Assembly (NCBI RefSeq): GCF_024508295.1
Contig: NZ_CP101990.1
Coordinates: 1,302,001-1,366,000 of the forward strand
Direction of reading: 5' to 3'
Source of the DNA: Aeromicrobium duanguangcaii
GTDB lineage: Bacteria > Actinomycetota > Actinomycetes > Propionibacteriales > Nocardioidaceae
Length of the DNA stretch: 64,000 nucleotides
In this document: piece by piece, positions 6,038 through 51,773 of the stretch
Layout: each line of letters starts with the position of its first letter
Numbering within the stretch: the first letter of the stretch is position 1
Made by a program: the position numbers and the translations under genes
Notes under the pieces: model-generated
What the model was told of the DNA's origin: nothing
Database searches by the model: none
The model's input: only the letters and a program-made list of their open reading frames with translations

Positions 6038-6047
6038 GAGGACTGCA

Positions 6048-8077: not shown

Positions 8078-8135
8078 TTCAGCCTGGGTACGACAGTCAA
8101 AACCCCTATCACCATCACCCGACGGGAACCACACG

Positions 8136-21867: not shown

Positions 21868-22233
21868 ATGTCGTGGGGGTCTGAGGAATACTCCCTCCTA
21901 CGGGATGGATACCGCGGCGATCGTCCAGTGGAGTCTGCATCGAAGCCGCCGCTCGCGTTGCTCGTGGTCGCTGCCGCGTGCGGACTGGCCGGCTTGGTGG
22001 TCGGGTTAGCGCTACGCACGTCCGCGCTAAACCTTCTCGGGTGGTTCGTGGGCGGCGTGGTGGCCCTCGTCTTCTTTGGGATGTTCCTGGTGAAGGACGC
22101 CCGAAGGTACACGGAGGGACTGGTGTTCTCGTCGACGTGGACGTTCCCGCTCAAGTGCGTCGTCCTCGTGCTGGCGCTCTCCGCAATCGTTCTGAACGCG
22201 TGGCGTGTCGCCGACGTGGTGTCCCGGTGGTGA
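21868..22233 (+). CDS. Small membrane protein opening the tubulin/GTPase system (121 aa)
   Basis: This 121-residue protein has an acidic soluble N-terminus (MSWGSEEYSLLRDGY) and three hydrophobic helices (about 29-50, 54-75 and 95-114). Its TGA overlaps the GTG of the vWA gene (GTGA), so the two are coupled. The family is not recognised. As the first product of the operon it may form part of the membrane platform of the system. Confidence 0.75.
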   Translation: MSWGSEEYSLLRDGYRGDRPVESASKPPLALLVVAAACGLAGLVVGLALRTSALNLLGWFVGGVVALVFFGMFLVKDARRYTEGLVFSSTWTFPLKCVVLVLALSAIVLNAWRVADVVSRW

Positions 22234-24797
22234 GGCTGGCCCTCGCCGGACGCCTGGTTGTGGCGTTCGGGTTCCTGATCCTCACCCTCGCAACGCCTGT
22301 GACCCGAGCTGAGGCTGCTTCCGCGAAGCAACCGCTGCAAGATTTCGGTGCCTGCATCGCCGGTGGCGGTAAGGCCCGCGTTCTCCTGCTGCTGGACACC
22401 TCGGCCTCTCTGAAGACCAGTGACCCGGTGGCCACCCGCGTGGATGCGGCGCGCCACCTCACCGATCGACTCGGCACCTTCACCAAGGCATCCGGAGCTG
22501 CTCTCGAGGTGGCGGTGGCGGGCTTCGCTGGCGACTTCAAGGTCTCCCTGCCATGGACGGCCCTCGACGGCGCGGGGAAGCGAGACGTGGCCACGTCGGT
22601 CGACAAGTTCCGTGGCCGGAACACTGGTTGGGAGACGGATTACTGGCAGGCTCTTCAGGGCGCTCGAACTTACCTCGCTGACGGTGACGCCGACTGCAAG
22701 GCGCTGGTCTGGCTCACCGACGGGATGTACGACCTCGATCAACGAAGTACCCAGCAGGAGAAGGACGATTACGGCACGACCAAGCCGTACGCCCCAGATA
22801 TCCGGCTGACGAGTGCCGGATCCGTCGAGCGGGTGGAGCGGGTCGGTTCGCGGGACCTGTGCCGGGCCGGTGGCGTCGCGGATGCGATCCGCGCCGACGG
22901 CGTCACCACGGTCGCGATCGCGTTGCAGGGCCAGGACCAGGGCGACTCGAACGACTTCGGACTCATGTCCGGCGTCGCCACCCGGAGCAAGGTCGACGGA
23001 GGCAAGTGCGGAGACCGTGACGCGCGCGGGAAGGGTTCCTTCGTGCTCGCGGAGGACGTGGGCGACCTCTTCTTCGCTTTCGACGCCCTGTCGGACCCCG
23101 AGAACCTGCCGAAGGAGCGGACGACGCCGCTGTGCCAAGGCGAGGTCTGCCCGGCCGGCCGCCATAGTTTCGTCACGGACCGTTCCATCTCGTCCGTTTC
23201 CGTGCTCGGAAGTGCCGACGTCAAGGGTTTCGAGGCGGTTTTCGTCACTCCGGCAGGGGAGCGCCTGACCTTGGCGCCGGGGGGCTCGCTGAAAGAGGAA
23301 CGCCCAGGTTTTGAGCTCCGAGCATCGTGGAGTACTGACGCGGTCTTCTCCGCCACGCTCGAGCGCGGTGAGGCTGCCTCGTGGGAGGGAACCTGGTCCG
23401 TCGTGTTCGTAGACCCGGCGAAGACCGGTCGCGGCAAAGCCCGTACCAACATCCGGCTCGTCAGCGATCTCGCGCCGGTGTGGGGACAGGACGACGAACT
23501 GGTCGTCGGTGATGAGTCTTCGCTCGATGTCGGGCTCGCTCTGGGGGACGGGTCGCGCGTGGAGCCGAAGGAACTCCAGAGCAATGTCAGCGTGGGCGTT
23601 CTCCTCGACCGGGGAGCAGACGGACGATCCGTTCTCGCGGAGGATCTCAGCGCGGCGGACCTCCAGAAGCCGGTGACGGTGGACCTCAGCAAGGAAGGCC
23701 CAGGAGCCGGACGGCTTGTTCTGGAGATGTCCTTGACCACTGCGGATCCTGGAGGAAAGGGCACAGAGCTGGGCCCGAGGACGGTCAGCTATCCGGTGAC
23801 CGTGCAAGCACCCGGCGAGTACCCGCGAGTGCCGGGGTCGATCGACTTCGGTCGCGGGGATTCGGTCGACGCGGTCGACCTGCCCGTCCGCTGGAAGGGT
23901 GGAGGCTGCGTCTGGCTCGCCAGTTCCCAGACGGACGTGTTGCCGAGCGGCGTCCCCGGTGCCGCGCTTGCGTCCACCGCGAGCGACGCAGACACCTGCG
24001 CGGAGGACGAGATCGTTCTTTCGCTCACTCCCGAGGAGGCCGGAGCCGGACTCCTGGGCGGAACGGTGCTCCTGCGCGCGCTCCCGGCCGACGGCCCCGG
24101 CGACGCCATCGAGATCCCGGTCAGGTTCCGCTACGAGATGGAGCCCGCGCCGAACGAGACCGTGCGGTGGGGAGTCTTCGCACTTGTCATGGCGCTCGGG
24201 TTGGCGATCCCCGTGGCGTTGCTCGCCGCGGTCAAGAAGCACGGTGCCGTTCTCGCCGGCGACGGCGTGGCCGTCGCGGTACTGCGCGGACAAGTGAACG
24301 AGTCGCAGTCGTTCCTCGTGGGAGCAGCGGTACCTCGTCACGAGCATCACGTGCACGTCTTCGCTGATCGCCAGACGAGCCTGATCATCAGCGACCGATT
24401 GACGCTTCGCGTGAAGTTTCACCCGTTTGCGCTGGTCACAGCGCCGGAGGTCAGGGCTGATGACGCGGCGTATGTCACTTCCCAGGGCCACGCGCTGCCG
24501 TTGGCCGTGCGGGGCAACTGGGTGGCGACGCTCGATCCTCACGCGCCCGGCACGGGTGACGTGGAGGTCGTGCTCCTGATGCCGATCTCTGGCCAAGGCA
24601 TCGACGCCGTTCTGGCTGACGCCCGTATGAAGGTGCCCTCTGCGGTGGCGAAGCTGCGAGGGAAGCATGGGCACGACGCGGCTCCCGCGGCCGCCAACAG
24701 TCGAGCGAACTTCGACGACGAATGGGGCACGCCGAGTTCAGGCGCGACCCCCAACCCCACCACCGCGAGCGACGTCGTCGACGACGACGTCTGGTGA
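22230..24797 (+). CDS. Secreted, membrane-anchored vWA-domain protein (855 aa)
   Basis: The GTG start at 22230 gives an N-terminal signal peptide (hydrophobic 9-22, likely cleavage after AEA near 29). A vWA domain of about 250 residues follows, with an intact MIDAS DTSAS (56-60) and LVWLTDGMYD as the later strand. A beta-rich stalk of roughly 350 residues comes next, then one membrane helix (about 645-668) and a cytoplasmic C-terminal domain of about 190 residues ending in an acidic tail. So the vWA part faces outward and the tail faces the cytoplasm. vWA domains bind protein partners through a metal ion. Its gene precedes the tubulin-like gene by 22 bases, suggesting that the tail recruits cytoplasmic partners. 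Confidence 0.85.
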   Translation: MRLALAGRLVVAFGFLILTLATPVTRAEAASAKQPLQDFGACIAGGGKARVLLLLDTSASLKTSDPVATRVDAARHLTDRLGTFTKASGAALEVAVAGFAGDFKVSLPWTALDGAGKRDVATSVDKFRGRNTGWETDYWQALQGARTYLADGDADCKALVWLTDGMYDLDQRSTQQEKDDYGTTKPYAPDIRLTSAGSVERVERVGSRDLCRAGGVADAIRADGVTTVAIALQGQDQGDSNDFGLMSGVATRSKVDGGKCGDRDARGKGSFVLAEDVGDLFFAFDALSDPENLPKERTTPLCQGEVCPAGRHSFVTDRSISSVSVLGSADVKGFEAVFVTPAGERLTLAPGGSLKEERPGFELRASWSTDAVFSATLERGEAASWEGTWSVVFVDPAKTGRGKARTNIRLVSDLAPVWGQDDELVVGDESSLDVGLALGDGSRVEPKELQSNVSVGVLLDRGADGRSVLAEDLSAADLQKPVTVDLSKEGPGAGRLVLEMSLTTADPGGKGTELGPRTVSYPVTVQAPGEYPRVPGSIDFGRGDSVDAVDLPVRWKGGGCVWLASSQTDVLPSGVPGAALASTASDADTCAEDEIVLSLTPEEAGAGLLGGTVLLRALPADGPGDAIEIPVRFRYEMEPAPNETVRWGVFALVMALGLAIPVALLAAVKKHGAVLAGDGVAVAVLRGQVNESQSFLVGAAVPRHEHHVHVFADRQTSLIISDRLTLRVKFHPFALVTAPEVRADDAAYVTSQGHALPLAVRGNWVATLDPHAPGTGDVEVVLLMPISGQGIDAVLADARMKVPSAVAKLRGKHGHDAAPAAANSRANFDDEWGTPSSGATPNPTTASDVVDDDVW

Positions 24798-24819
24798 GTA
24801 AACCAAGGAGAGATGGCCA

Positions 24820-27800
24820 GTGAGGAAGTACATCGTCGTCGGCGTCGGAGGATCGGGCGGCGCGACCGTCCGGTACATCATGGATCAGCTCAAGGCCGAT
24901 CTGCGCAGTCGCGGCGTCGAGGAACTGCCTGCTGCGTGGCAGTTCCTCCAGATCGACGTCAACCCGCGCCCGGACTCTTCGCCTGAGCTCGGTTCGATCC
25001 GAGACCTCGGTGGCCGGTACGTTTCGGTCAGTTCCGCATCCAACACCTTCTCGGTGGTGCGTCAGCAGGTTGAGGGCCGTCTGCAGGGCGCAGGTCACCT
25101 GGAGGGTCTCCTCGGGTGGGCGCCCGAGCCGCGCGCCGCCGCCGACGGCGTCAACATCTCCGAAGGCGCGGGGCAGTATCGCGCGATCGGGCGAATGCTG
25201 ACGCTGACACGGCTTGCCCTCATTCAAGAGGCCTTGAATTCCGCTTGGCAGGACCTCCAGCAGCCCGGCGCGTGGGGGAACCTGCCCCACCAGCTGGCCG
25301 ACCAGGGGCCGTATGACAGTGCTTCGGTCGTACCCATCGTGGTGGGGTCAATGGCCGGCGGCTCCGGCGCGTCGATGTTCCTTGACGTGTGTCGACTTCT
25401 TGGCCGTGTGAAGGGCGTCGTCCCGAAGGCGACCAGCGCATTTCTCTTCACTCCTGACGTGTTCCACGCGCTGGACAAGTCCAACCGAGTGGGTATCGAT
25501 GGCAACGCGATGGCCACGCTGGCCGAGGTCATCGCGGCCCAAGCGCGATCCAGCGACGCGATCGACAGCGCCTTGATGACGGCACTCGGGGTGGCCTCAG
25601 CGAACGGAGAACCGGCCGCTTTTGGCCGCGTTCTTCCCATCGGCGCGTCGATCGGCGGCGATGGTGCCAAGTTCGGTGAGACCCCGGAGGACGTTTTCCG
25701 CGGGCTGGGCCGAGCGATCGCGGCGACGATGATCTCCGAGCGGGCGTCCAAGACGTTCCTTCAGGTCGTCATCGAGAACCCGACCCCGCCGCCTGTGGTC
25801 GAGAAAGTCGTCGGTTGGGGAGCCGACACCTCGTCGGTGTCATGGGGCTCCTTCGGATACTCGAGCCTGAGCCTGGGGCGTGACCGCTACGGGGAGTACG
25901 TCGCCCAGCGCCTGGCTCGTGTGGCTGTCGACCGGCTGGTGGACGGGTACAAGGAGCTCGCGAGCGCCCTCTCGCCGCAGGACCAGCTGGAGCGAGCGGT
26001 CGGCGCACAACGAGAGACGTTGTACGAGCGCGTCGGTCTACCCGTCCAGAACGCGAAGTTCTCGGTCTGGATCCAGCAGTTGCTCGGAGCGCGACAGAGT
26101 CAGATCGCGGACGACTCGCTGGGCAATGTGCTGGACGTCCTCGATCAGCTGAATGCCGGGCCGAAGGGCGCGGACTTCTTCGGGGTGGCTCGTCAACGAT
26201 TGGCCGGGGACGAGGCGGCGGTGGCGCACGGCCTTGACGTGGGGGCGTATGCCTGGGTCGAGGAGTTCGCGGTGGGTCTCGAGGCACGCCTTCGCGCGGA
26301 GACTGTTCGGATCCTGGCTGAGCCGACGCAGGGACTGCCGTTCGCGCGCAAGATCCTCGAGGACATGGCGAGCCGATACCGCGTGCTTTCCGAGAAGCTC
26401 GTCGCGGCGGTTCCCCCGGCAGGCACGGTGCTGCAGTTCAGTGATCGCGTCTTGGACATGGGGGCCATGGACAACACGCCGAAGCTGCGCCAAGAGGCCC
26501 GCGCGGACATCGAAGACCGGGTCAACAACGCGGTCCTTCACCGCGTGGCAATCCCGCTGAGCGGCGTTCTCCGTTCGGTAGCGGAGGACGTTCTGCCGGC
26601 GATCAGCCGGGCGTTGAGCGCAGCGCAGCAGGACCTCGAGAACGCCATGAAGCTTGCGGAGCGACAGGCTGGCCTGGCTCAGTTGCACACGAGGCTCTAC
26701 GGCGAGTGGCCCTCCGGCGATGTGGTGCCGCCGCGATTCAAACACGCCCACAACGAAGTGCTGCTGACGACGGCGGACGACTTCCCGGCCACCTTTCGAT
26801 CCCACGTGGAGGCAGCCGCCCCTGGAGTGCCCGTCGAGAATGCCGTGAACGACATGGTGCAGCACATCGTGCGAGGCGAGTGGGAGGACCAGGGGGCCGC
26901 GCCGAGCAGGTTCGACGTCCTGACGAACGTCGTCGCTTGGCGTGCGGCCGCTCTGCCGCGAGACGCTGCAACCGGGGACCCCCGTCCGGCCAAGACCCCC
27001 GTGTACGAACTCGCTCTGAAACCGGCTGATCTGTTGATGCGTGCCGGTGCGTTCGCAGCGCGCAGGGACCACCATTTCGCGATCTTCACCAATCAGACCT
27101 TTGAGGCCTACCTGAACGAACCGGGGGTGCCTGATTCGGAACGCACCGGGCGCCTTCTGAAGTTTCGGTCGGCGTTCAAGCAAGCCGTGCACCAGGCCGC
27201 ACCGCTGGTGGGCGTCGACGCGCACCTCGTCGAGAAGATCCATGCGCAGAAGGTCAGGCCTCAGCTGACCTTCAGCGAGATCCCGGTCGCGCCTGGGTCC
27301 GCGGCCGCCAAGGCGCTTGAATCAGAGATCCAGCCGGCGGATGGTCAGCCGGATCCTTCCGTCGACAGGCTCCGTGAGGCTCTCACTGCTCAGAGCAACG
27401 CCAACCGCATCGCCATCTATGGGGCGTACCCGAAGTACCTGCCGGTGGTCTTCAGCAGTTTCCTCGACCAGTTGAAGGACCGCTGGTCGAATGCCACAGG
27501 ACTGGAGCGTGGGGACCTGTGGCGGTGGAAGCGTACGCGTCCACTGCCCGCGGCGCTGGCGATGGGCGCGGCAGAACAGACCGCCATCGTGAAGGGGTGG
27601 TATCTCGGTCGCGCATTGGGTTTGGTCACGCATCCGGTCCACCCCGGAGACTTGGGACCCGTCCAAGTCTTCGACGCGCTGCGGTCAGCCAGAATGCTGC
27701 CCTTCTCCGATGAATTCCTCACGCCGCGTGCGTCGTGGGGAGAAGCCGGTAGCTCTTGGCTGCCGGGTGTTCTCGAAGGGCACACGCTCGCACTGGTTCG

Positions 27801-28266
27801 GTGCTCCGGCGACGTGGAGTTCACCGCGCTGCAGCCGTATCGCGCGTTGCGCGAGCTGTACGACAGGGGACTGGAGCCGACGAGGGAGGGCTCGAGGACT
27901 CACGGTGAGGATCTGGTCAGCGGGTGGCTCTCCACGGGCGAGTGGCCGGCGGGACACCCGTCTCAGATCGAGAAGCTAAGAGAGGCGGAGGACACTCCCG
28001 AGGGCCGGGCTGCAGCGCTCGCCGCGTGGTTGGAAAGCGTGCAGACGCACTACGAGGAGCGCTTCATGGCGCCACTGTCGGGTCCGGGAGTGCTGTCACT
28101 TCCGCGTTTCGACATTGGCTCACTCGAGGAGGTGCGCGCGGGCCATCTCGATGGAGAACTCGCTCTGGTCATCCGCAATGCGTTGGTCGAACTGCAGGTG
28201 ACCGTCCGGCGCGCCTTGGAGCGCAGCCGTCCGGCGGCCGGTGGTGGCAATGTCATCCAGTTCTGA
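24820..28266 (+). CDS. Large tubulin/FtsZ-like GTPase (1148 aa)
   Basis: The GTG start lies 13 bases after AAGGAGAG. The N-terminus is a nucleotide-binding Rossmann start, KYIVVGVGGSGGATVRYIMD (3-22). The tubulin signature equivalent VVGSMAGGSGASMFLDVCRL lies near 173-192, in place of GGTGTG. At 1148 residues it is far longer than FtsZ or tubulin (about 350-450), with a very long mostly helical C-terminal part. It resembles the Pfam Tubulin_2 group of large bacterial tubulin-like proteins. It is probably cytoplasmic and possibly polymer-forming, but polymerisation cannot be read from sequence. Its 3' end overlaps the next gene. Confidence 0.85.
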   Translation: MRKYIVVGVGGSGGATVRYIMDQLKADLRSRGVEELPAAWQFLQIDVNPRPDSSPELGSIRDLGGRYVSVSSASNTFSVVRQQVEGRLQGAGHLEGLLGWAPEPRAAADGVNISEGAGQYRAIGRMLTLTRLALIQEALNSAWQDLQQPGAWGNLPHQLADQGPYDSASVVPIVVGSMAGGSGASMFLDVCRLLGRVKGVVPKATSAFLFTPDVFHALDKSNRVGIDGNAMATLAEVIAAQARSSDAIDSALMTALGVASANGEPAAFGRVLPIGASIGGDGAKFGETPEDVFRGLGRAIAATMISERASKTFLQVVIENPTPPPVVEKVVGWGADTSSVSWGSFGYSSLSLGRDRYGEYVAQRLARVAVDRLVDGYKELASALSPQDQLERAVGAQRETLYERVGLPVQNAKFSVWIQQLLGARQSQIADDSLGNVLDVLDQLNAGPKGADFFGVARQRLAGDEAAVAHGLDVGAYAWVEEFAVGLEARLRAETVRILAEPTQGLPFARKILEDMASRYRVLSEKLVAAVPPAGTVLQFSDRVLDMGAMDNTPKLRQEARADIEDRVNNAVLHRVAIPLSGVLRSVAEDVLPAISRALSAAQQDLENAMKLAERQAGLAQLHTRLYGEWPSGDVVPPRFKHAHNEVLLTTADDFPATFRSHVEAAAPGVPVENAVNDMVQHIVRGEWEDQGAAPSRFDVLTNVVAWRAAALPRDAATGDPRPAKTPVYELALKPADLLMRAGAFAARRDHHFAIFTNQTFEAYLNEPGVPDSERTGRLLKFRSAFKQAVHQAAPLVGVDAHLVEKIHAQKVRPQLTFSEIPVAPGSAAAKALESEIQPADGQPDPSVDRLREALTAQSNANRIAIYGAYPKYLPVVFSSFLDQLKDRWSNATGLERGDLWRWKRTRPLPAALAMGAAEQTAIVKGWYLGRALGLVTHPVHPGDLGPVQVFDALRSARMLPFSDEFLTPRASWGEAGSSWLPGVLEGHTLALVRCSGDVEFTALQPYRALRELYDRGLEPTREGSRTHGEDLVSGWLSTGEWPAGHPSQIEKLREAEDTPEGRAAALAAWLESVQTHYEERFMAPLSGPGVLSLPRFDIGSLEEVRAGHLDGELALVIRNALVELQVTVRRALERSRPAAGGGNVIQF

Positions 28267-30883
28267 TCTCGTCATCCTGGCCGCCGATTGCGACGAGCTG
28301 CCGGCGTGGACAGGGACACTCCAGGACTGGTCAGCGCTCGGGATCGTTCGCGACTTCGTGGCGATCACCCTGCAGGATGTCGCAGCGTCGACCTGGCGGG
28401 CATTGCTGATCGCTGACGGGGCGGCGACGCCGGTCATCCTTCAGGACGAGATCGCTGCACGTCCCTTGGTGACGTCGGTCTCGGTCCTGGCGCTGGGCAC
28501 AGTCGGTGTCAAGGCTGTGCTTCCCGACAACGACATTTCGGCAGCCCTCAGGGATGCCGTGCACTTCGCGCTGCCCGGGATTCCCCTCACCTGGGGTCAA
28601 GTGGTGAACGTCGGAACGACTCAGGGTTGGCCACAGGTCGACCCCGCGACGTTCGCTTGGACGGGCGGTCACACGGTGCTGTTGGCGCCAGAGAACTCGC
28701 ACTCGCCGGGCGGTGGCAAGGCGCCGGTGCCGGCCGAGGAGCTGCGGCGGCCGTTAGGTCTGACACACGGTGCTGCGGGCCTGGCCTCGGCAGCGGGACT
28801 GTGGACCGGAGCCAGCCGTGGCACGGTGCACGGTGCACCGGCCTCCGGTGGGGGGCGCGTCACCCTGCTGCGGACGTACACGCGGCACGTGTCGACGGCA
28901 GAGTCTGCCAACGATCTTTTGGCCCGGGTGATCGACGTGAGCGCCCGGTATCCGGTCCCGGTCGACCGAGTCGGACGCCAGCTTCAGCGGATCTCCGACG
29001 AGAACGCCGCCGCGGCTCGTATGGCGAGGCATCTGTTGAAAGCACATGCTTCGACGCTGGATCCCTCGCCGCGTGTCGGTCGAGACGTCAGGGCCGAACG
29101 GACGCCGGCCAAGGAGATGCTCAGGCGCTTCTTCGCATTCCTTGGTTCGGCTCTCCGCCTCGCGCCCCAGACGTTCGCGCATGCTCTGGAAGCCGAGGCT
29201 GCGCGTGCGACGGCGCCGGCCCTGCAACGACTCCTGCTCGGGTCGAACTCGGCCTACCAGATCACGGTGCGCGACATCACGGGCATCGCCGAGGATGGCG
29301 AAGTCGTCTCGGCGGTGGCTCTTGAAGCAGACCTTGACGCACGGGTGGCTGCTCTGGCGGGGGATGAGCACACGTCGGTCAGCCCGCGTCATGATCATCC
29401 CGACCTGTGGAAGGACTTCGTCAATGGAGCCCTGACCCTGCTGGACGGGCAGGAGCGCAGCGAGAAGCTTCCGGAGCCCACAGAAGCCGGAGCGACGGCG
29501 GTGGTGACGGATCCGCGGGTCGTCGTTCCGGATCTGTCCTCGATCTTCGAGCTGCCGGCTGAGGCCAAGCGCCTCGTCGCTGTGGCGACTCTGCCGGCCA
29601 ACGACTTCGAGCGGATGGGTGTCGTCGAGCAGATGATCGCCGAGCAGATCCGCCGGGAGCCCGACAGCGCTGCCGAGTTCGCACACCTGCAACGACGGGT
29701 GGATGAGTGGCGTGACCGTTCCGCTCGCTCGTACAGCGGGCAGGTGGGCAGGCATATCGCAGAGCGGATCTCTGGGCTCAGGACAGAGGCGCTGCTGCAC
29801 CAGGAAGTCCTCCGGCGACACGGGGCCGACACCGGTCTCGGCGATGCCGTTCTCAAGGACCAGACGAGCCTCGGCCGGTGGACCTGGGCGGTCCTTCTGA
29901 TGGCCCTTGCCACCTCGAGCGTGTTGACCTTCTTCGGCGCGGACGGGGCGATCGCGTGGACGGAGGTCGCTGGGTGGATCGCGGCGACGTGGATCGTGGC
30001 CTTGGCCCTGCTGCTGGGCGTCTTCGTCGCTCGCCAACGGGCGCTCTTCCAGCTGATTCACCGGCGGCAGCGGGAACGACGACTCGCGGAGATCGCCTAC
30101 GAGGATCTCACCGCGACGTTGAAGGACCTGAGACGGTTGCTGGCCGTTCACCGTCAGTACGTGGACTGGAGCAGGGCCCTCACGGCTTTCGTCGGGGCGC
30201 CTTGGGGGGAGGTCGCGCCGGGGCGCGAGCGAACGACGGAGTTGGGAGCCGGCTTCGGCCACAACCATCGCTTCGGGCGCGTGGTCATAGAGGACGCGGC
30301 CGCCGACGAGCTGGCCCGTCGAGCGCAATCGGAAGTGAGCGAGCCGGGTTGGCTGTCCGACGCCTGGCAGGCGTTCCTCGCCGATCTGCCGGCCTTCGAA
30401 GACCGCCATCGAGTGGAGCGCGAGCCGGAGTTGCTGTTCTCGGACGCGCGCATGGGGGAGCGTCCGGTCCTGACCGTCTGGAGTGAGCAGATCGCCCCGC
30501 ACCGACGCTTTGACGCTGCACGGCCGGTGCTGGACCGCCTGCGGACGTTCGTCGACGAAGTCGCGAGCGAGGGCGATCGACGAGTGCTGTGGACGGACGG
30601 CGCCAGCCGGAAGCACGACGAGTCGTATCAGGAATTCGTCGCCGGAGTCTTGCCGAGTCGGACTCGTGGTGAGTTCTCTCGGCACGTCTTCGCGACCGTT
30701 CCCGAAACCGTCGACCCGTGGATGGTGTCGCACACCGAAACCGGGGACTTCACCCCAGAGGGCGGTCCACTCGTCCTGACGCAGCTGACCGAACCGTTCC
30801 CCGCCCGTGATCTGGCGTTCTGCCGGAGTGGGCCTGTCCTCGAACCCGTCGCGAAGAGCTTCGGCGACGCTCCACAGATGTGA
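28250..30883 (+). CDS. Large two-TM protein of the tubulin/GTPase system (877 aa)
   Basis: I start it at ATG 28250, overlapping the tubulin gene's last 17 bases; GTG 28241 is also in frame. The protein has a soluble N-terminal region of about 540 residues, a membrane hairpin (about 543-563 and 573-595, TWAVLLMALATSSVLTFFGA and IVALALLLGVFVA), then a charged coiled segment (RRQRERRLAEIAYEDLTATL) and a C-terminal soluble domain of about 200 residues. Both large domains should lie on the same side of the membrane. I do not recognise the family. Overlap with the tubulin gene implies coordinated synthesis. Confidence 0.75.
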   Translation: MSSSSDLVILAADCDELPAWTGTLQDWSALGIVRDFVAITLQDVAASTWRALLIADGAATPVILQDEIAARPLVTSVSVLALGTVGVKAVLPDNDISAALRDAVHFALPGIPLTWGQVVNVGTTQGWPQVDPATFAWTGGHTVLLAPENSHSPGGGKAPVPAEELRRPLGLTHGAAGLASAAGLWTGASRGTVHGAPASGGGRVTLLRTYTRHVSTAESANDLLARVIDVSARYPVPVDRVGRQLQRISDENAAAARMARHLLKAHASTLDPSPRVGRDVRAERTPAKEMLRRFFAFLGSALRLAPQTFAHALEAEAARATAPALQRLLLGSNSAYQITVRDITGIAEDGEVVSAVALEADLDARVAALAGDEHTSVSPRHDHPDLWKDFVNGALTLLDGQERSEKLPEPTEAGATAVVTDPRVVVPDLSSIFELPAEAKRLVAVATLPANDFERMGVVEQMIAEQIRREPDSAAEFAHLQRRVDEWRDRSARSYSGQVGRHIAERISGLRTEALLHQEVLRRHGADTGLGDAVLKDQTSLGRWTWAVLLMALATSSVLTFFGADGAIAWTEVAGWIAATWIVALALLLGVFVARQRALFQLIHRRQRERRLAEIAYEDLTATLKDLRRLLAVHRQYVDWSRALTAFVGAPWGEVAPGRERTTELGAGFGHNHRFGRVVIEDAAADELARRAQSEVSEPGWLSDAWQAFLADLPAFEDRHRVEREPELLFSDARMGERPVLTVWSEQIAPHRRFDAARPVLDRLRTFVDEVASEGDRRVLWTDGASRKHDESYQEFVAGVLPSRTRGEFSRHVFATVPETVDPWMVSHTETGDFTPEGGPLVLTQLTEPFPARDLAFCRSGPVLEPVAKSFGDAPQM

Positions 30884-30884
30884 G

Positions 30885-31304
30885 GTGAGATCGATCAATC
30901 AGGTGTACCTGTGCGTGGCGTCCGCGACCGGCGCGGTGCTCACCGCTGTCGTCGTCCTCGTGTCCTCGGCGCACGTCTCGAACTCGCTCTCCGTGGCACT
31001 GGCGGCAGGTCTGACGGCCGTGGCTGCGGTCCTCGCCCCTCGGGCAGCCCGAGGTATCGACCGATGGTTGCTGCCCCTCATGGGCGTCGCGTGGGCGGTT
31101 TCGGCGGGCGTCGTCTGGAGCGACGCGCGCTGGGTTACCGGTGGCCTTGCGCTGCTCACAGCGGTGGCGCTCATCGCTCAGGCGGTCGCCGACCGGGGTC
31201 ACATCGCCATGATGGATGGGACGCCGCAGCACCGAAACGTTGTGGCCGGATCGGGAGTCGACCGGGTCGCCTCCTCGAGCGAAACGACGGGGGACCGCTG
31301 GTGA
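30885..31304 (+). CDS. Small four-helix membrane protein (139 aa)
   Basis: The GTG start at 30885, one base after the previous stop, gives a 139-residue protein. Four hydrophobic helices (about 5-25, 30-48, 58-76 and 80-97) are followed by a polar tail. Its stop overlaps the next gene's GTG (GTGA). The family is unknown. It is a candidate membrane subunit of the system. Confidence 0.7.
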   Translation: MRSINQVYLCVASATGAVLTAVVVLVSSAHVSNSLSVALAAGLTAVAAVLAPRAARGIDRWLLPLMGVAWAVSAGVVWSDARWVTGGLALLTAVALIAQAVADRGHIAMMDGTPQHRNVVAGSGVDRVASSSETTGDRW

Positions 31305-34854: not shown

Positions 34855-35891
34855 GTGCCAGGCTTCAGGCGCCTCGCGGAGGAACGGCGGAGCTTCGTCC
34901 CGGCTACCTGCGCGTTCGCCTCACCGGGGATGTCGACGGCGTGCGCCTCCTGGCGACAGGTCTCGGCGGCGAAGACAGGGTGGACGAGCGCGAATCACCC
35001 CACGCCGTGGACGTCTCGCCCACGGAGGGCGAGGTGTCGCTGTCGGTCGTACCCGAAGCGGGTGTCGAGTTCTCTCCCGGCACGCGACTCGGCCTCGACG
35101 TCGAGGTGTTCGCTGGCGCCGGTGCTCGTGATCTCCCTGCTGCCCTCGACGTCCTCAGGATCGACGTGGGCGCACTGCGCTCCTTCGAACTGGCCGCCTG
35201 TCGCGGGGACCGGACGTCCTGGCACGTCGGGCTGGGCGTTCCCGCGCCCTTAGCCTTCGACTTCAGCGACGATGACATCGTGGCGCGGCTCGACGAGCGT
35301 GAGGCGTTGTGGGTTGCGCCCGGGCGGTACATTCTGCGGGTTTCACGCGGGGGAGAGGACCTTCCCGCGACAGGGCGCAGGTGGGCGCTGATCCTCGATT
35401 CCTCAGCTTCCTTCAGCCGTGCGTTGGACGCGAACGAAGTGAACGGGGCTGCCCGTGTTCTAGCGGGGCTCCTCGCGGAGGAGACCGGACTCGGTCCCGC
35501 ATGGACCGGGGCGACGGGATTGACTGAGCCGGTCCACGGATCGACCGACCCGGGATCAGTCGCACTGGCGTTGGACCCCGGACGCCCGGCGTCGTGGTGT
35601 CTCGCTGCTCCGGCGCTCGATCAGGCGTGGGCCGCAGGCGCACAGTCGGCAGTTCTGCTGCTTGATTCTGAACCTGCTGACCTGCCCGACGTGCGGAAGC
35701 TGTTGGCCGATTCGGCAGATCGCGATGTGCTCCTCGTCCTGGTGGGCGCGACCGCCGGACACGATATTCCCCTTCGGGGTGAGGTATCCGGCCGACTGAA
35801 CGTGGCATACCTGAAGGCGCGTGAGGGTGTCCCCGCTCAGGAGTGGGACTGGAGTTCCGTGTGCTCGCTGTTGAGCGGAGGCCGACGATGA
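34851..35891 (+). CDS. Second vWA-like protein of the system (346 aa)
   Basis: ATG 34851 overlaps the previous stop (ATGA). The N-terminal half is beta-rich. The second half begins WALILDSSASFSRAL, with the DSSAS arrangement of a MIDAS-type vWA domain, followed by AVLLLDSEPADLP and VLLVLVGATAGHDIPLRGEV strands. It has no signal peptide or TM, so unlike the 855-residue vWA protein it should be cytoplasmic. vWA-GTPase pairs are common in regulated assembly systems. It overlaps the GTPase gene by four bases. Confidence 0.7.
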   Translation: MSARLQAPRGGTAELRPGYLRVRLTGDVDGVRLLATGLGGEDRVDERESPHAVDVSPTEGEVSLSVVPEAGVEFSPGTRLGLDVEVFAGAGARDLPAALDVLRIDVGALRSFELAACRGDRTSWHVGLGVPAPLAFDFSDDDIVARLDEREALWVAPGRYILRVSRGGEDLPATGRRWALILDSSASFSRALDANEVNGAARVLAGLLAEETGLGPAWTGATGLTEPVHGSTDPGSVALALDPGRPASWCLAAPALDQAWAAGAQSAVLLLDSEPADLPDVRKLLADSADRDVLLVLVGATAGHDIPLRGEVSGRLNVAYLKAREGVPAQEWDWSSVCSLLSGGRR

Positions 35892-37000
35892 CGAAGTGCC
35901 CCACGTGCTTTCGGGATCTTCCCCCGGAGGTCGAGTACCTGGCCTGCTCGACCTGCGAGGGGGAGCCATCTGCGCGTCTCACCCAGGAGTACGGACGGGA
36001 TGTCCCGCTGCCCTACGTCTTCGAGGTTGACCAGGTCTCATGCCCGAGGTGCAAGTTGGACGCGGTCGTGGAGGCGTGCGCGTCCTGCCACTCGGTGGTT
36101 CCCGACGAGTGGCGCCGTCCCGACACCACCGTCACCTGCGTCGCCATGGCTGGCGCACGGAGTTCGGGGAAGAGCATCTACCTCGGGGTTCTGCGCCAGC
36201 AGCTCGCGCTGTGGGTGGAAGAGACTCATGGGACGCATCTGGAACTCCTGGGCGATAGCGAGCGCCACTATTGGCAGCGCTACGGGGCCCCGTTGTTCGA
36301 CGAGGGGGTGATTCTCGGCGCCACAGCCGAGATCGCAGCCGATCCCGACGGATACCGGCCACTGATCTTCCGGTTCGTCGACGCTGCCGGTCGGAGCCAA
36401 ATCCTGGTGGTCCGCGACGTCGCCGGTGAGGACCTCGAGGACTTGGTGCGGCGTCGGTCGGCCCTTGAGTTCGTCAAGCGCGCGGATGCGGTGGTTGCGC
36501 TGATCGATCCGTTGAAGATGGACAGGCTGCGGGAGTCGCTGCACGGGATCATTCAGCCCGGCGACCTCGGGGGGGACGGTGTCGAGGTCGTCCTCCAGGT
36601 TTTGAACCTCCTCACCGACGACGGCCGCCTGCCCGTCCCCGAGGGCAAGCGGGTGGCTGTCGCTGTATCCAAGCTCGACATTTTGCAGCAGATCAGGGAC
36701 GTCGAGGGTGCGCCCTTGCGACGCGTGATGGTGCGCGCAGGCTCGCCCTTGCAGCGCGATCCGTCGATGCGCACGGCCGGCTTCGACCGGCGTGACGCGG
36801 ACTTGGTCGACGCCGAGGTTGACTCGCTCTTGGTCGAGCTCGTCGGTCCGAAACTCAGGAATCTGCTTCGTCAGAAGGACGTGGACCATCGTTACTTTGC
36901 GGTCTCCGCACTCGGTGCCCACCCTGAGGGCCAGAGTCTTAATTCAGCGGGAATCGCACCGTTCCGAGTGCTCGACCCGGTGAAGTGGATCCTTTCGTGA
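35888..37000 (+). CDS. Zinc-ribbon GTPase, DO-GTPase-like (370 aa)
   Basis: ATG 35888 overlaps the previous stop by four bases. Two zinc ribbons open the protein (C4-C7/C20-C23 and C52-C55/C64-C67). A GTPase domain follows with P-loop GARSSGKS (89-96), a switch-II-like RDVAGED (about 175-181) and VAVSKLDIL (SKLD near 259-262) as the guanine-specificity motif. The SKxD variant and DxAGE switch match those of the operon GTPase at 14211. It is likely the central switch of the system, controlled by the GAP1-like and vWA-like partners encoded just upstream. Confidence 0.82.
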   Translation: MTKCPTCFRDLPPEVEYLACSTCEGEPSARLTQEYGRDVPLPYVFEVDQVSCPRCKLDAVVEACASCHSVVPDEWRRPDTTVTCVAMAGARSSGKSIYLGVLRQQLALWVEETHGTHLELLGDSERHYWQRYGAPLFDEGVILGATAEIAADPDGYRPLIFRFVDAAGRSQILVVRDVAGEDLEDLVRRRSALEFVKRADAVVALIDPLKMDRLRESLHGIIQPGDLGGDGVEVVLQVLNLLTDDGRLPVPEGKRVAVAVSKLDILQQIRDVEGAPLRRVMVRAGSPLQRDPSMRTAGFDRRDADLVDAEVDSLLVELVGPKLRNLLRQKDVDHRYFAVSALGAHPEGQSLNSAGIAPFRVLDPVKWILS

Positions 37001-37530
37001 GCGGCGTACGAGAGTCAGGCTGCAGCATCGACGTGGCCGAGGAACAGGACGCGCTCGTCGCAGACGTCGAGTGGAGCCTGCCCGGCGGCGTGGCCGCGCT
37101 GTATGTCATGTGCACGGACGCCGGCGGGGCGGTTTCGAGCGCATCAGATGTGGTCTTCAGGAAGACGCCTCGGCTGACCGGGGACGGCGTGGTGCTCCGT
37201 CACGAAAGTACCCCCGAAGGAAGGACCAAGGCGCAGGTTCAGGTCTGCTTCGAACTGCTGGACCCAAACGTGGGTCGGTTGGAGTTCGTGCTTTCTGCCG
37301 GTAGGAGCTCGGTGCTCACGGGACTGCAGGACCTCACCGTGGCGATGTGGAATCCCCGCGACGGCGCGTCCGTGGAGACCTGGACCCTGCCGAGCCCCAA
37401 GCTGGCGAAGCGGGTGGAACTCGGTCGCCTCGAACGTCGAGAGAGCGGCTGGACCGTCACGATGAATCCGGTACCGAACGAGTTCGACTTCAACCAGCTC
37501 TTCCAAGAGCGGTATGAGGCGCCTTCCTGA
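36997..37530 (+). CDS. Small beta-rich protein closing unit 1 (177 aa)
   Basis: The GTG start at 36997 overlaps the GTPase stop (GTGA). The 177 residues are mostly beta strands (DALVADVEWSLPGGVAALYV, TKAQVQVCFELLDPNVGRLE), ending in NEFDFNQLFQERYEAPS. The pattern DVEWSLPGG...DV..SVLT recalls TerD/stress-type or FN3-like sandwiches, but I cannot assign it. It is the last gene of the ten-gene unit and is tail-to-tail with the HNH gene, 3 bases apart. Confidence 0.7.
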   Translation: MSGVRESGCSIDVAEEQDALVADVEWSLPGGVAALYVMCTDAGGAVSSASDVVFRKTPRLTGDGVVLRHESTPEGRTKAQVQVCFELLDPNVGRLEFVLSAGRSSVLTGLQDLTVAMWNPRDGASVETWTLPSPKLAKRVELGRLERRESGWTVTMNPVPNEFDFNQLFQERYEAPS

Positions 37531-37533
37531 CGC

Positions 37534-38424
37534 TCAACGAGTGCAATGCTTCTCGGCCACGCGGCCGAGGGCCCCGTGGTCGGCGGAGGTTATCGGGAGT
37601 CCCCAGCGCAGGGACGTCCGGACGTAGCGAATCCCGTATTCGCATCTGAAGGCGCGGTTCGGGGGGAGCCAGTCGCCAGGTGTGGAGTCACGCTTGTCCT
37701 GATTGGCATCGCCATCGACGGCCAGCAGTTCATCCTTCACGTCGTTCGCGAAAGCCTCGCGGCGCTCGCGCGGCCACGAGGCTGCGCCGAGATCCCAGGC
37801 CGCTGCCAAGGGGATCAGATGGTCGATCTGGACAGCCAGGCTCGATCCCCAGCCACGTTCGAACGCGATGCTACGGCCGGTGTAGGGGTCGTGAAGCGTG
37901 CCGCGGCGAACGACGCAGTCGTTCGTCCCGGGATCGATGACGACCTCGGTGAGGTCGCGGCGCAGCACGTCGTTGCGCGTGTCGCATCCGTTGTGTCCCA
38001 TGGTCGCGTCGGTCGCGTCGTTCCATTCGGTTCCGAAGACGCAGCCGTCTCCCGGAGAGCAGCTGCGGTCGTAGCCGGGAGGGTTGGGACGCGATGCGAC
38101 CACCTTGACCTTCTTGAGGAGCTGAAGCAGCCTGTCGCGTTCGCTCCTCGGCGTTGTGGACGGCGTGATTGGCGAGGGAGTGGCCGCCGGAGTCGGTGAC
38201 GTGGTCGGCGACTCGCTCGGTACGACGGAGGTCGTCGGTTGCGTGGTTTCCGGATCTCCGGCGGATTCGGTGGGGCCCGTCGCTTGAGCCGCTTGTAAGG
38301 TCGTTGCGTCGTCCTCTGCCGCGTCGAGGCCAGCAGCGAGAGTGTGTCCCGAGAGCAGGATCAGCGCGACGATGCTCGCCGCGCGAAAGGCGATCCCGTG
38401 TGGTGCCGAACGTATGACTCTCAC
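37534..38424 (-). CDS. Secreted HNH endonuclease family protein (DUF1524-like, 296 aa)
   Basis: The protein has an N-terminal signal or anchor segment (AASIVALILLSGHTLAAG), then a Thr/Pro/Ser-rich linker of about 70 residues, then a GmrSD C-terminal/DUF1524-like HNH nuclease domain. That domain shows LQIDH-type core residues in SLAVQIDHLIPLAAAWDLGA, DGDANQDKRDSTPGDWLPPN and a Cys pair (CEYG...KHC). It should act outside the membrane on DNA. It lies on the minus strand between the two plus-strand units of the tubulin/GTPase system, and whether it belongs to the system is not clear. Secreted HNH proteins of this type are common in actinobacteria. Confidence 0.82.
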   Translation of the reverse strand: MRVIRSAPHGIAFRAASIVALILLSGHTLAAGLDAAEDDATTLQAAQATGPTESAGDPETTQPTTSVVPSESPTTSPTPAATPSPITPSTTPRSERDRLLQLLKKVKVVASRPNPPGYDRSCSPGDGCVFGTEWNDATDATMGHNGCDTRNDVLRRDLTEVVIDPGTNDCVVRRGTLHDPYTGRSIAFERGWGSSLAVQIDHLIPLAAAWDLGAASWPRERREAFANDVKDELLAVDGDANQDKRDSTPGDWLPPNRAFRCEYGIRYVRTSLRWGLPITSADHGALGRVAEKHCTR

Positions 38425-38458
38425 CTCAATTGTGAAGAACGGGCCCGCTGGGGTGCGT

Positions 38459-38477
38459 GTGCCGAATAACGTGGCAC
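38459..38477. promoter_or_regulatory. Short inverted repeat GTGCC-N9-GGCAC in a divergent promoter region
   Basis: GTGCC at 38459-38463 and GGCAC at 38473-38477 form a small palindrome in the 138 bases between the HNH gene and unit 2. It could be an operator controlling either direction. The evidence is weak. Confidence 0.25.
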
Positions 38478-38562
38478 GGATACTCGCGAGCGTTGTCCCA
38501 TGTTACGGATGCGGCGACTGGCCCGAGGCATGCCCGAGAAATACGACCGCAGGAGGATATCG

Positions 38563-39756
38563 GTGTCTGACGAGCGCACCACGTGTGCCGAGAGTCTCGA
38601 GCGATTGGCGGCGGACCCGCGTTTCGACACTCGAGCCGACGACCTCCGCTCGCTGGCCGCAGCGGTCCGTGACCAAGGGGACGGAACGTGGACGGGCATC
38701 GATTTGGTCGGCGCCTTCCCGCCCGAGGCCTCGATCAACGTCACCAAAATGCACTGGTGGGAGCGGATCGTCGGCATCGCGGCCGGCGCCTCGGTCTTCC
38801 TGCCCGTGGCATGGACGTGGTGGAGCATCTATCGCGCTTCGGAGGCCTACCGCGAACTCCTCGATGCAGGCGACGAGAAGGGCCGCACGTTTCTTGGGAT
38901 GTGGACGACCGGCTTCGACGGACGAGTGGGCGCTTGGCACGAATTCGGCGCGACCGCGATGGTCTCCTTCGGGCTGGTTACGCTCGCTGTGTTGTTGGTC
39001 GTGCTCAACCGTTGGGTCTCCGACCACTACATGTTCAAGGAGGAGAGCTCAGGCGGCGCGGCGCGGCGAGAGCTCGTGGCGGTACTCGGTCGGGCCCAGC
39101 GATTCCTGAACGAGCGTCGGACGGACGATCCGCGCTTCCTCGAGGCAGCGCTGAAGCGTTCAGTGGCAGAGTTGAACGAGGCGCACGGTGCCACCCGTGA
39201 GGGAGTGGAGGAGCTCCGCCAGGCGACGACCGAAGCAGTCACGCGGTTCGAAGGCGCGGCCAACAAGATCCTCGAGGATCTGCGTCCCCTGCTCCAGTCT
39301 GCGGACTCGGCCAGTCGCACCTTCGCGGAGTCGGCAGAATCCGCCGCCGGACTTCAGGAGAAGGTCCTCACTAGCGCCCAGAACTTCGACGAGACGCTGC
39401 GTGGTGCGCTGACCTCGTTCCAGGACACCGTGTCGTCCAGCACTACGGCCTTGTCTGACAGCAGCCGAACAGCGGCGACGACTCTCACTTCGGGCGTGTC
39501 GGCAGCCGTGGATGGGCTCACTGACGGGGTCAAGCGGATCGAAGCAGCACAGCGAAGCACCGAGTCGTGGCTCGTGGAGGGCGTCGGGACGCAGGCCCGG
39601 GCCACGGAGGCTGCGCAGCGCGCCGCTGCGGACCTGAGCCGGATTCTCGAGGCGCACCAGTCCGCACTCCAGGGTCAGAGTTCGGACCTCAGCCGCGCCG
39701 CCGACCTCGCTGGACAACTGCTCGACGAACTCCGTTCCGCGGGCGTTGTTCGGTGA
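38563..39756 (+). CDS. MotA/ZorA-like membrane protein with long coiled-coil tail (397 aa)
   Basis: GTG 38563 follows AGGAGG at 38551-38556. Two membrane helices (about 68-89 and 129-148) are followed by a helical, Ala/Ser/Thr-rich coiled coil to the C-terminus (residues 150-397, VEELRQATTEAVTRFEGAAN, then Ser/Thr-rich repeats). A membrane channel subunit with a long cytoplasmic rod, next to a gene for a one-TM protein with a TM Asp, is the layout of ZorA-ZorB in Zorya anti-phage systems. ZorA and MotA have more TM helices, so the resemblance is architectural and may not reflect descent. It overlaps the next gene by four bases. Confidence 0.7.
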   Translation: MSDERTTCAESLERLAADPRFDTRADDLRSLAAAVRDQGDGTWTGIDLVGAFPPEASINVTKMHWWERIVGIAAGASVFLPVAWTWWSIYRASEAYRELLDAGDEKGRTFLGMWTTGFDGRVGAWHEFGATAMVSFGLVTLAVLLVVLNRWVSDHYMFKEESSGGAARRELVAVLGRAQRFLNERRTDDPRFLEAALKRSVAELNEAHGATREGVEELRQATTEAVTRFEGAANKILEDLRPLLQSADSASRTFAESAESAAGLQEKVLTSAQNFDETLRGALTSFQDTVSSSTTALSDSSRTAATTLTSGVSAAVDGLTDGVKRIEAAQRSTESWLVEGVGTQARATEAAQRAAADLSRILEAHQSALQGQSSDLSRAADLAGQLLDELRSAGVVR

Positions 39757-40277
39757 GGGTCAGCGCATCGCTGAGCAACGGTCGCCGCGGCCGGCTGCGT
39801 TCGACCGAGTCGCTGGCTGGTTGGGTGTTCGCCGACATGCTCCTGGTGCTCTTCCTGATCGGATTGGGGACCGCCGTCGCCGTCGATCCGCCGGAGCCCG
39901 AGCCCGAGCCTGAACCGGTGATGATCGTCGGCATGAAGACCGATCCGATCAGCATCTCAATCGCTGTGCCGGCGGATGGTCTGGTCGCGGGCGCGGCGGA
40001 TGCCAAGGCGAAGGCGCAGAAGGCCGTGGCCAAGGCGATCCGGCGTTACGACAAGAACGGTAACGAAGCCGCGTTGGTGTTGATCTTCGGTGGTGCCGAG
40101 ACGGCAGGACCGGGCCAGGAGGTCGCCAAGGCCCTACGCCCTCGACTCACGAAGGCATCGCCCGATCTGTTTCCACGCAAGGCACCGAGTCGCTTCTTCT
40201 GGGATGGGAGTCTCCCGTACGGAAAGGTCCGGCTCGAGGTGTTCCTGTTCGCCAAGGAGGAGACGAAGCAACCGTGA
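39753..40277 (+). CDS. MotB/ZorB-like single-TM protein (174 aa)
   Basis: The GTG start at 39753 overlaps the previous stop. One membrane helix (about 21-43, GWVFADMLLVLFLIGLGTAV) carries Asp28 at the position of the proton-carrying Asp of MotB, ExbD and ZorB. A Pro/Glu linker and an outer alpha/beta domain follow (KAQKAVAKAIRRYDKNGNEA, ALVLIFGGAETAGPGQEVAK), which looks like a minimal OmpA-type fold. With the gene upstream it probably forms an ion-driven membrane unit. The TM Asp is seen directly; the function is inferred. Confidence 0.75.
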   Translation: MRVSASLSNGRRGRLRSTESLAGWVFADMLLVLFLIGLGTAVAVDPPEPEPEPEPVMIVGMKTDPISISIAVPADGLVAGAADAKAKAQKAVAKAIRRYDKNGNEAALVLIFGGAETAGPGQEVAKALRPRLTKASPDLFPRKAPSRFFWDGSLPYGKVRLEVFLFAKEETKQP

Positions 40278-41341
40278 TGACGTGGTGGAACTCCGTGACC
40301 TGCTGGCTCGCGGCGCCGTGGTTGGCCGTCGCGCGCGGGTGGTGGCTGCTGGGCGGATTCGTGGTGCTCCTCGCGCTTCTCGGGACGTATCTGTGGAGCA
40401 GACGACGGAAGCTGCGTCGTTTGAGGGACCAAGCCGCCGTCAGGGCGGTGCGCGCCGCAGCCGAGGCCGAGCGGGAGCACTTTCGCAGCCTGCCGCGGTC
40501 AAGCGTAGATTTCGGCTTCGCCGTCGACGAGTCGCCCGTTGATGACGGAAGAACGGTTGCTCTGACACCGGAACAGGAGGCGTTCGTTCGTCAGCAACTC
40601 GCGATCGGGAACGAGCGCGTCGACGCTCGCTCGTGCGAAGGCGGCACCGTGCTTCGTGCCGAGGGAGGGCGAGAAGCCCTCGTCCTCGACGTGCCGGTCA
40701 GGCGTCGCGCCGCGCGGGCGGGGTCCGTGGTCGACCGCCGCCCTCCGGTGCGAGGCTCGGGGGACGTACGTATCGACCTTCGGTGGCCCGACGAGGTGTT
40801 GATCGACGAGTACGGTGACGTCAAGGGGTACTTCGCTCCGGCGCTCGAAGACACCTTCCTCGCGCGCAGTGGAGTGAGCGAAGACCCGACTCCTCGCACG
40901 CTGGAGGAGTTGATCTCCGGTGAGGACCCTGTGCTCACGCCGTTCCGGCGGGTCGAGATCGCCCGTTCAGTGTGCGGGTGGCTGCTCGCCCAGCACCGCG
41001 TCGGCCTCATCAACGCGCAGGTGGACCCGAGGTATCTGCTCGTGGACGAGTCCGTGACTCGTGTGACTCCGGTGCACTACCGCGGACTTCGCCTGTTCGG
41101 TTCCGGCGGTTGGTCTCAAGCTGGCGGAGGAAGTCACGCTGATGACCGAGCGGGCTTCGCTCGGTTGGCGTGGCGACTGCTGTGGCCCCGGGGGACGGAC
41201 CCCCGAGCATGGCTTGACGCGGACAGCGCGATCGAAGGGCTCGACGACGTCCGCAGCGACCGCGTTCGTTTCCTCCTGCGACGGGGCCTTGGTCCCGCTG
41301 CTGCTGCGCCAACGATGGAGGAGTGGGCCGCGGCGCTGTGA
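40277..41341 (+). CDS. TM protein with degenerate protein-kinase-like domain (354 aa)
   Basis: I start it at ATG 40277 (TGATG with the previous stop); GTG 40274 is in frame. An N-terminal hydrophobic hairpin (about 10-45) precedes a cytoplasmic region. The C-terminal part looks like a reduced kinase lobe: ARSVCGWLLAQHRVGLINAQ resembles the helix before a catalytic loop, with NAQVDPRYLLVDES where HxDxxxxN would lie and RVTPVHYRGLRLFG where DFG would lie. The catalytic residues are not conserved, so it is probably a pseudokinase or binding module. It ends 38 bases from the convergent hsdR gene. Confidence 0.6.
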   Translation: MTWWNSVTCWLAAPWLAVARGWWLLGGFVVLLALLGTYLWSRRRKLRRLRDQAAVRAVRAAAEAEREHFRSLPRSSVDFGFAVDESPVDDGRTVALTPEQEAFVRQQLAIGNERVDARSCEGGTVLRAEGGREALVLDVPVRRRAARAGSVVDRRPPVRGSGDVRIDLRWPDEVLIDEYGDVKGYFAPALEDTFLARSGVSEDPTPRTLEELISGEDPVLTPFRRVEIARSVCGWLLAQHRVGLINAQVDPRYLLVDESVTRVTPVHYRGLRLFGSGGWSQAGGGSHADDRAGFARLAWRLLWPRGTDPRAWLDADSAIEGLDDVRSDRVRFLLRRGLGPAAAAPTMEEWAAAL

Positions 41342-48444: not shown

Positions 48445-48507
48445 GAGATTCAGATCCCCGTTTCCGTGAGGGTGTTCAGCTTCGCTGAGTCTGGCAGCAA
48501 TGGACAT

Positions 48508-51742: not shown

Positions 51743-51767
51743 AGGTTCGAACCCAGTATCGCCCACC
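51743..51767 (+). other. 3' tRNA-Val fragment: right attachment site (att) of the island
   Basis: These 25 bases (GGTTCGAACCCAGTATCGCC then CACC) match the T-arm and acceptor 3' end of an actinobacterial tRNA-Val. The 5' two thirds of a tRNA are absent upstream. The fragment lies immediately outside the integrase and is followed by a terminator hairpin, as expected when an element inserts at the 3' end of a tRNA gene and leaves a duplicate of its end. The complete tRNA-Val should lie at the far left end of the island. Confidence 0.8.
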
Positions 51768-51773
51768 CGAGAC

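Follow-up and report, generated by a model that had tools for sequence, protein, structure and literature searches.

Do the 13 plus-strand genes at positions 21868-41341 of the 64,000-nucleotide stretch of Aeromicrobium duanguangcaii DNA analysed here (the window) form one undescribed two-unit machine? The first-pass annotation had proposed that they might, which was too strong; the content of the first unit has been published (main text of Kaur et al. 2020, PMC7159879), and the second unit is a separate cassette. Unit 1 is a known predicted system; what is new is that a mobile motor-like cassette and a nuclease of secreted type accompany it. The locus is mobile, carries conserved motifs and a conserved gene content and order, and has retained the cassette over large divergence.

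The tubulin-centred core operon

Gene calls placed the 13 genes in two tight units, as had been described: ten genes in unit 1 (21868-37530) and three in unit 2 (38530-41341), with neighbouring genes within a unit overlapping by 1-49 nt or spaced 19-32 nt apart (Table 1). Gene starts come from a simple gene caller and are uncertain. The order in unit 1 is m121, membrane vWA protein, tubulin, TM880, s133, FN3-like protein, GAP1, vWA2, DO-GTPase and TerD-like protein.

Among the "GTPase-centric" conflict systems with GAP1-N2, Kaur et al. (2020) set out, as a prediction, a tubulin theme of actinobacteria; in their main text, tubulin-centred sets of firmicutes and actinobacteria account for ~52% of GAP1-N2 neighbourhoods, and cytoskeleton-like complexes are predicted to assemble in a regulated way during conflicts with invaders (PMC7159879). 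Features of this theme found in the window were GAP1-N2, a DO-GTPase with a Walker B Glu (27/27 family rows) and ribbons, a single tubulin with a long C-terminal extension, and a conserved neighbourhood. Judged by these sequence features, unit 1 belongs to the tubulin theme of actinobacterial GAP1-N2 GTPase systems, which are predicted to act against invaders.

We compared the core with 30 loci in relatives, made up of 29 of the 33 listed Tubulin_2 matches and one named Corynebacterium locus; the window's own match and those in G370, G172 and G399 were left out. The exact order vWA-tubulin-TM880-FN3-GAP1-vWA2-DO-GTPase was kept in 24 of the 30, which argues that the arrangement is more than chance. 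Together with the published gene content, it also means that the core is not new, and the description of unit 1 as an undescribed combination was rejected on the main text of PMC7159879. Loci L033, L040, L050, L061 and L003 lacked one or more core genes, some because the sequence stretch ends, and family profiles found none of the core genes in L060. In L033 (genome G300), the m121, vWA, tubulin, TM880 and HNH genes were kept, and no FN3, GAP1, vWA2 or GTPase family match lay within the stretch examined. A TerD family gene directly followed the GTPase gene in 13/30 loci. Across the order, Tubulin_2 occurred in 32 of 391 genomes (own genome counted); in one genus (g7), it occurred in 6 of 147 genomes. 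The match in the window was the single one in its own genome.

Most of the named parts had been read correctly in the first-pass annotation, as had their joint organisation and their setting at the membrane and in a defence island; the link drawn to DO-GTPase/GAP1 conflict systems was also right, a resemblance confirmed by the main text of PMC7159879. The Tubulin_2 match upheld the 1148-residue tubulin/FtsZ-like GTPase, and the three Gly of its GGxG box were present in 30/30 family rows; the GAP1-N2 match likewise upheld the GAP1-like partner (Table 1). Two vWA proteins had been proposed. The first matched VWA_2 over the Pfam cut-off (E 2e-8), with the Asp of the metal-ion-dependent adhesion site (MIDAS) in 28 of 30 family rows and gaps in the other two, and its vWA domain presumably faces outward. 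The second, vWA2, had no Pfam match and no PDB profile match at E 0.1; it was recognised by its DxSxS motif, with Asp in 26/26 rows, the first Ser in 25 and the second in 23.

The zinc-ribbon GTPase matched PF19993 DO-GTPase2 (E 2e-4) and the DZR double zinc ribbon (E 9e-4), both below the Pfam cut-off, and was corroborated by motifs in 27 family rows: the P-loop GKS was complete in all 27; in D.AGE, all 27 rows had the D, G and E and 26 had the A; and in SKxD, all 27 had the K and D and 26 had the S. The ribbon Cys residues were present in the window copy and gapped or absent in 9-21 of the 27 rows. The motifs of the tubulin, GTPase and vWA proteins support the prediction that these proteins are active.

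The FN3-like scaffolds stood less firmly. None of 25 family members matched any Pfam family at E 0.01, and an HRDC domain was not found in them either; a PDB profile search returned four matches in all (E 0.019-0.65), to chains that we take to be FN3-type. The family itself was found in 28/31 sources (window counted, here and below). The TM880 family was found in 29/31 sources and had no match in Pfam, NCBIfam or PADLOC, and nothing below E 0.12 in a PDB profile search. The m121 family profile matched in 24/31 sources, directly before the vWA gene in 23/30 loci, and the position of s133 was occupied in other loci by a gene of 188-274 amino acids without a match.

Two genes had been missed in the earlier gene list: the TerD-like gene and, between the units, a minus-strand gene for an HNH protein, separated from unit 1 by 3 nt. 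Based on its domain and N terminus, this protein is probably a secreted-type nuclease. The HNH gene was present in 6/7 tubulin loci of the family (window counted) and in none of the 24 others within the stretches examined, some of which end early.

The motor-like cassette of unit 2

Unit 2 encodes, in order, a coiled-coil membrane protein, a protein with one transmembrane (TM) stretch, and a pseudokinase. The first two had been called a MotA/MotB-like pair, which held for architecture and failed for sequence kinship. Of the two TM stretches predicted in the coiled-coil protein, a single one passed the hydrophobicity scan. Its membership in MotA/ExbB/TolQ was rejected (hhalign probability 1.8 against 8 MotA sequences), PF01618 had no match in the window's own genome, and PADLOC ZorA matches (best E 0.0011) began at residue 196 at the earliest, in the tail. 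No sequence kinship of the one-TM protein to MotB was detectable; the comparison sets were the 8 of 16 loci that passed the motif filter for MotA and the 8 of 16 that passed it for MotB. Foldseek with the one-TM protein returned nothing at E ≤ 0.001, the best match being AIR synthetase and the second OprF. The third protein had been called a degenerate kinase, and both its kinship to kinase-like neighbours (hhalign, Table 1) and its missing motifs agree with this; the window copy lacks catalytic and metal-binding motif residues and tested negative as an active kinase.

The pair might be a static sensor or tether and not a motor, with the coiled coil serving as a scaffold and the Asp as a structural residue. 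The small number of TM stretches in the large subunit and the lack of MotA/ExbB kinship favour such a tether, whereas the gene order and shape match ZorA-ZorB, and the membrane-entry Asp, within a FAD motif, was invariant in 9/9 aligned members and was kept in 6/7 distant loci, with Glu in the seventh (L117). We consider the static alternative a serious contender that falls somewhat below an even chance.

Of 294 family genomes, nine had a gene for the coiled-coil protein, four with the core (the window, L038, L041 and L057) and five without any Tubulin_2 gene. Besides the window, three of the 30 relatives' loci have the cassette next to the core, which makes four of the seven family tubulin loci. 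In these three relatives' loci, identity to the window was 61, 50 and 45% for the tubulin, 69, 50 and 41% for the coiled-coil protein, and 71, 58 and 51% for the one-TM protein; because these identities fall in step, core and cassette appear to have been retained together and not to be chance neighbours. The earlier expectation that all the genes travel together held for unit 1 and was contradicted in part for unit 2, which is a cassette of its own.

In the family genomes without Tubulin_2, the cassette kept different company. In L072, the coiled-coil gene lay with a one-TM gene, vWA and PP2C genes identified by Pfam, and kinase-like genes, a triad that we take to be TerY-type; L073 had a similar arrangement by sequence likeness. 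In L074, L075 and L076, the cassette was followed by a pseudokinase-like gene (by profile match in L074 alone, by alignment in L075 and L076) and long helicase-like genes. The helicase after the cassette in L076 matched HmaA (E 6.8e-279), and a second helicase at the L075 locus (L086) matched DrmD/DpdE (E 5e-141), with L074 assigned by likeness only.

A profile of the one-TM protein matched 11 of 296 class genomes, nine of them outside the family; neighbourhoods were fetched for seven of these nine, with G641 and G799 left out. The pair lay beside a BrxC/D ATPase gene in L111 (PF10923, E 1.3e-132) and, by likeness, in L114. By reading, HSP70- and GrpE-like genes lay beside it in L112, and vWA, PP2C and kinase genes in L113 and L114; L112 was also grouped with the latter by sequence likeness. 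In L115 and L116, the pair and a DO-GTPase-like gene shared a gene run (L115, PF19993 27.3 bits at a cut-off of 27 and family profile E 2e-8; L116, family profile E 7e-8). The ~950-residue neighbours in these two loci were considered as GAP1 and rejected, with no Pfam match and an hhalign probability of 0.0. L117 had a MotB-like match, but its adjacent gene lacked a cassette profile match, and no DO-GTPase was found there by Pfam. Among eight checked class genomes with the cassette, Tubulin_2 was present in one (G789), on another contig.

These neighbourhoods bear on whether unit 2 is a second system, unrelated to unit 1 and placed next to it by chance in one clade. The five of five other family genomes that carry the cassette without Tubulin_2, and the many other gene sets beside it, are what such an accident would predict. 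Against it, the adjacency recurs in four loci of two genera, down to 45% tubulin identity and with the same rank order of identities, and in L115 and L116 the pair belongs to the same run of genes as a DO-GTPase-like gene. We regard chance adjacency as rather unlikely.

The island and its neighbouring genes

The locus had been placed next to a type I restriction-modification operon within a tRNA island. The operon was confirmed, its genes starting 38 nt after unit 2, and is a neighbour of the locus and not part of it. For the island, a tRNA-Val(CAC) gene and an attachment (att) repeat were found; the tRNA gene itself lies outside the window, 169-242 bp to its left, and ARAGORN identified no tRNA inside the window. 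Based on the 43-bp repeat of the tRNA 3' end (Table 1), the island measures 51,935 bp; its GC content is 0.643, versus 0.704 and 0.706 in the flanks. Within the same genus, G018 has an empty site, where the tRNA is joined directly to the right flank (90.8% identity over 1259 bp); on the left side the match covers just 118 bp around the tRNA, and the same Val-Cys-Gly tRNA cluster lies ~2 kb upstream in both genomes. In G020 and G011, the right flank is present but no tRNA-Val adjoins it, so the empty site was found in one of the three relatives examined. In G255, of another genus, the tubulin operon begins ~0.5 kb from the same tRNA-Val, and a second copy of the tRNA 3' end was not found in the downstream stretches examined. 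The operon lies ~0.6 kb from a tRNA-Arg in G300, and no tRNA was found in the upstream stretch of the other four family loci.

This setting weighs on a further alternative, in which the tubulin operon is a second cytoskeleton for wall, polarity or stress response that the island merely carries. It draws on the occurrence of the core in another family, where several genera have it, in places beside ordinary chromosomal genes, and where the stretches examined contain neither the HNH gene nor the cassette; in addition, none of the core proteins scanned was recognised by Pfam as a toxin or nuclease. The patchy distribution of Tubulin_2 given above argues against such an envelope role, as do the position of the locus in an island with att sites and other defence genes and the presence of a relative on 2 of 72,556 plasmid records, both from Rhodococcus and >1 Mb. 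We assign the envelope role a low probability.

Several other genes of the island were noted. The DUF4268 protein of the restriction-modification operon (44508-45482, minus strand) matches the candidate defence family PDC-S11 (PADLOC E 1.6e-104). A UzuA-like GIY-YIG protein (17173-17793, minus strand; PADLOC E 5e-81) looks short at its N terminus because the match to the model begins at position 102, and an Mrr-type gene is also present. About 6 kb upstream of the locus, a second P-loop protein (14211-15449, minus strand) passes the Pfam cut-off for DO-GTPase2 (37.2 bits, E 3.3e-9); its gene adjoins one for a membrane protein of unassigned family (15683-16945). A short stretch at 20801-21112 (plus strand) is similar to a section of the NERD-UvrD or Gabija helicases (PADLOC E 2.5e-6) and is perhaps a remnant. 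At 1970-12298, the island has genes for two LysR regulators and a series of metabolic genes (nitronate monooxygenase-like, TctC/B/A transporter, dehydrogenases, CoA-transferase and enoyl-CoA hydratase).

Table 1. Positions, strands and supporting evidence of the features discussed, in window coordinates.
Feature	Position	Strand	Evidence
m121, small membrane protein with four hydrophobic stretches, first core-operon gene	21868..22233	+	Family profile, hydrophobic scan
Membrane vWA protein, signal-like N terminus, one TM at about residues 650-668 with a tail behind	22227..24797	+	VWA_2, hydrophobic scan
Tubulin/FtsZ-like GTPase, 1148 amino acids, long C-terminal region	24820..28266	+	Tubulin_2 E 4.8e-41, over cut-off, residues 5-370
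TM880, conserved membrane protein with central TM hairpin	28241..30883	+	Family profile, hydrophobic scan
s133, small membrane protein	30903..31304	+	Hydrophobic scan, locus comparison
FN3-repeat-like protein, FN3 identity weak	31301..33490	+	PDB profile matches
GAP1, GTPase-associated protein with GAP1-N2 domain	33487..34854	+	PF20013 E 1.2e-11, over cut-off
vWA2, vWA-like protein without TM, DxSxS motif	34851..35891	+	Motif in family of 26
DO-GTPase2-like GTPase with zinc ribbons, alternative start 35888	35843..37000	+	PF19993, DZR, motifs
TerD-like protein, alternative start 36985	37033..37530	+	PF02342 E 1.8e-4, below cut-off
HNH nuclease, GmrSD_C type, signal-like N terminus, convergent with unit 1	37534..38424	-	GmrSD_C E 2.3e-12, hydrophobic N terminus
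Coiled-coil membrane protein, ZorA-like by anatomy only, predicted TM hairpin and long coiled-coil tail	38530..39756	+	Alignment of 9
One-TM protein, ZorB/MotB-like by anatomy only, Asp28 in TM, Pro-rich linker, putative OmpA-like outer domain	39753..40277	+	
Membrane-anchored pseudokinase	40277..41341	+	hhalign to kinase-like neighbours, probability 99.6, E 2.4e-24
Type I restriction-modification operon (HsdR, DUF4268/PDC-S11, HsdS, HsdM)	41380..48507	-	
Tyrosine-integrase-like gene, reading frame broken, inside right end	50443..51576	-	Family named by reading
Right att site, 43-bp repeat of tRNA-Val(CAC) 3' end	51744..51786	+	

Proposed action and comparison with known systems

We judge it about evenly balanced whether unit 1 is a predicted anti-invader system of the tubulin theme that is extended here by a secreted-type HNH nuclease and a separately mobile motor-like cassette. 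In such a system, the outward vWA, FN3-like and wall-facing parts would monitor the envelope, and the motor-like pair would convert ion flow or wall strain into movement of its long cytoplasmic tail. The pseudokinase may dock the pair to the GTPase/GAP1 switch, and GTP loading would then license the tubulin to build a polymer or scaffold at the membrane, which could contain the invader or kill the cell; the HNH enzyme might cut DNA outside the membrane.

The position of the cassette beside several defence-related gene sets suggests a shared power or sensing unit. More tentatively, and with some doubt, the pair and pseudokinase could be an unnamed Zorya-like energy-transducing cassette able to work with effector sets of very different kinds (tubulin-GTPase, DO-GTPase without tubulin, HSP70, vWA-PP2C-kinase, HmaA/DrmD-like helicases and BREX ATPase), coupling ion flow or wall strain in the window to a defensive tubulin polymer. 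Should this coupling exist, several defence-related machines of different kinds would draw on a single power or sensing unit in the membrane, and this shared unit would explain why tubulin-GTPase and helicase sets have a common neighbour. For the predicted tubulin conflict systems, the window also offers a small locus suited to assays and, in Asp28, a specific residue. In one open-licence library we found no experiment on these predicted systems and no antiviral assay of such a locus; nor did we find there the pairing of core, cassette and nuclease, a search whose scope stopped short of subscription papers, figures and source data.

Unit 1 and the tubulin theme in the main text of Kaur et al. 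share a single tubulin with a C-terminal extension, a membrane vWA protein, GAP1-N2, a zinc-ribbon DO-GTPase, an actinobacterial host, a membrane-near setting, predicted action on invaders and, putatively, an FNIII protein (PMC7159879). The published theme has two FNIII proteins, one fused to HRDC and one membrane-bound with vWA; in unit 1, the membrane vWA protein is present, whereas FN3 was identified by weak PDB matches and no HRDC was found by Pfam. As described in that main text, the theme names no HNH gene, TerD or motor-like pair, all three of which are present in the window; MotA, ExbD and TolQ are not mentioned there, and TerD appears only for another system (PMC7159879).

For the unit 2 pair, we used the passages on Zorya in PMC11890865 and PMC8565338. 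Based on these passages, ZorAB and the unit 2 pair share a large membrane subunit with a long cytoplasmic coiled tail and an adjacent small one-TM subunit with a membrane Asp and a wall-side domain (putative in unit 2); unlike ZorAB, the unit 2 pair has at most two TM stretches and undetectable MotA/ExbB or MotB kinship. Among the 20 window entries scanned, no ZorC, ZorD, ZorE, ZorF or ZorG partner matched in PADLOC at the cut-offs used. As for Hma (PMC8565338), an HmaA-like helicase follows the cassette in L076, whereas unit 2 in the window is not followed by a helicase of this kind. The vWA/PP2C/kinase triad, which adjoins the cassette in L072 (by Pfam) and in L073, L112, L113 and L114 (by likeness), resembles theme 3 in the main text of Kaur et al.; the window unit has no PP2C or active kinase, but its pseudokinase is related to the kinase-like family of the triad loci.

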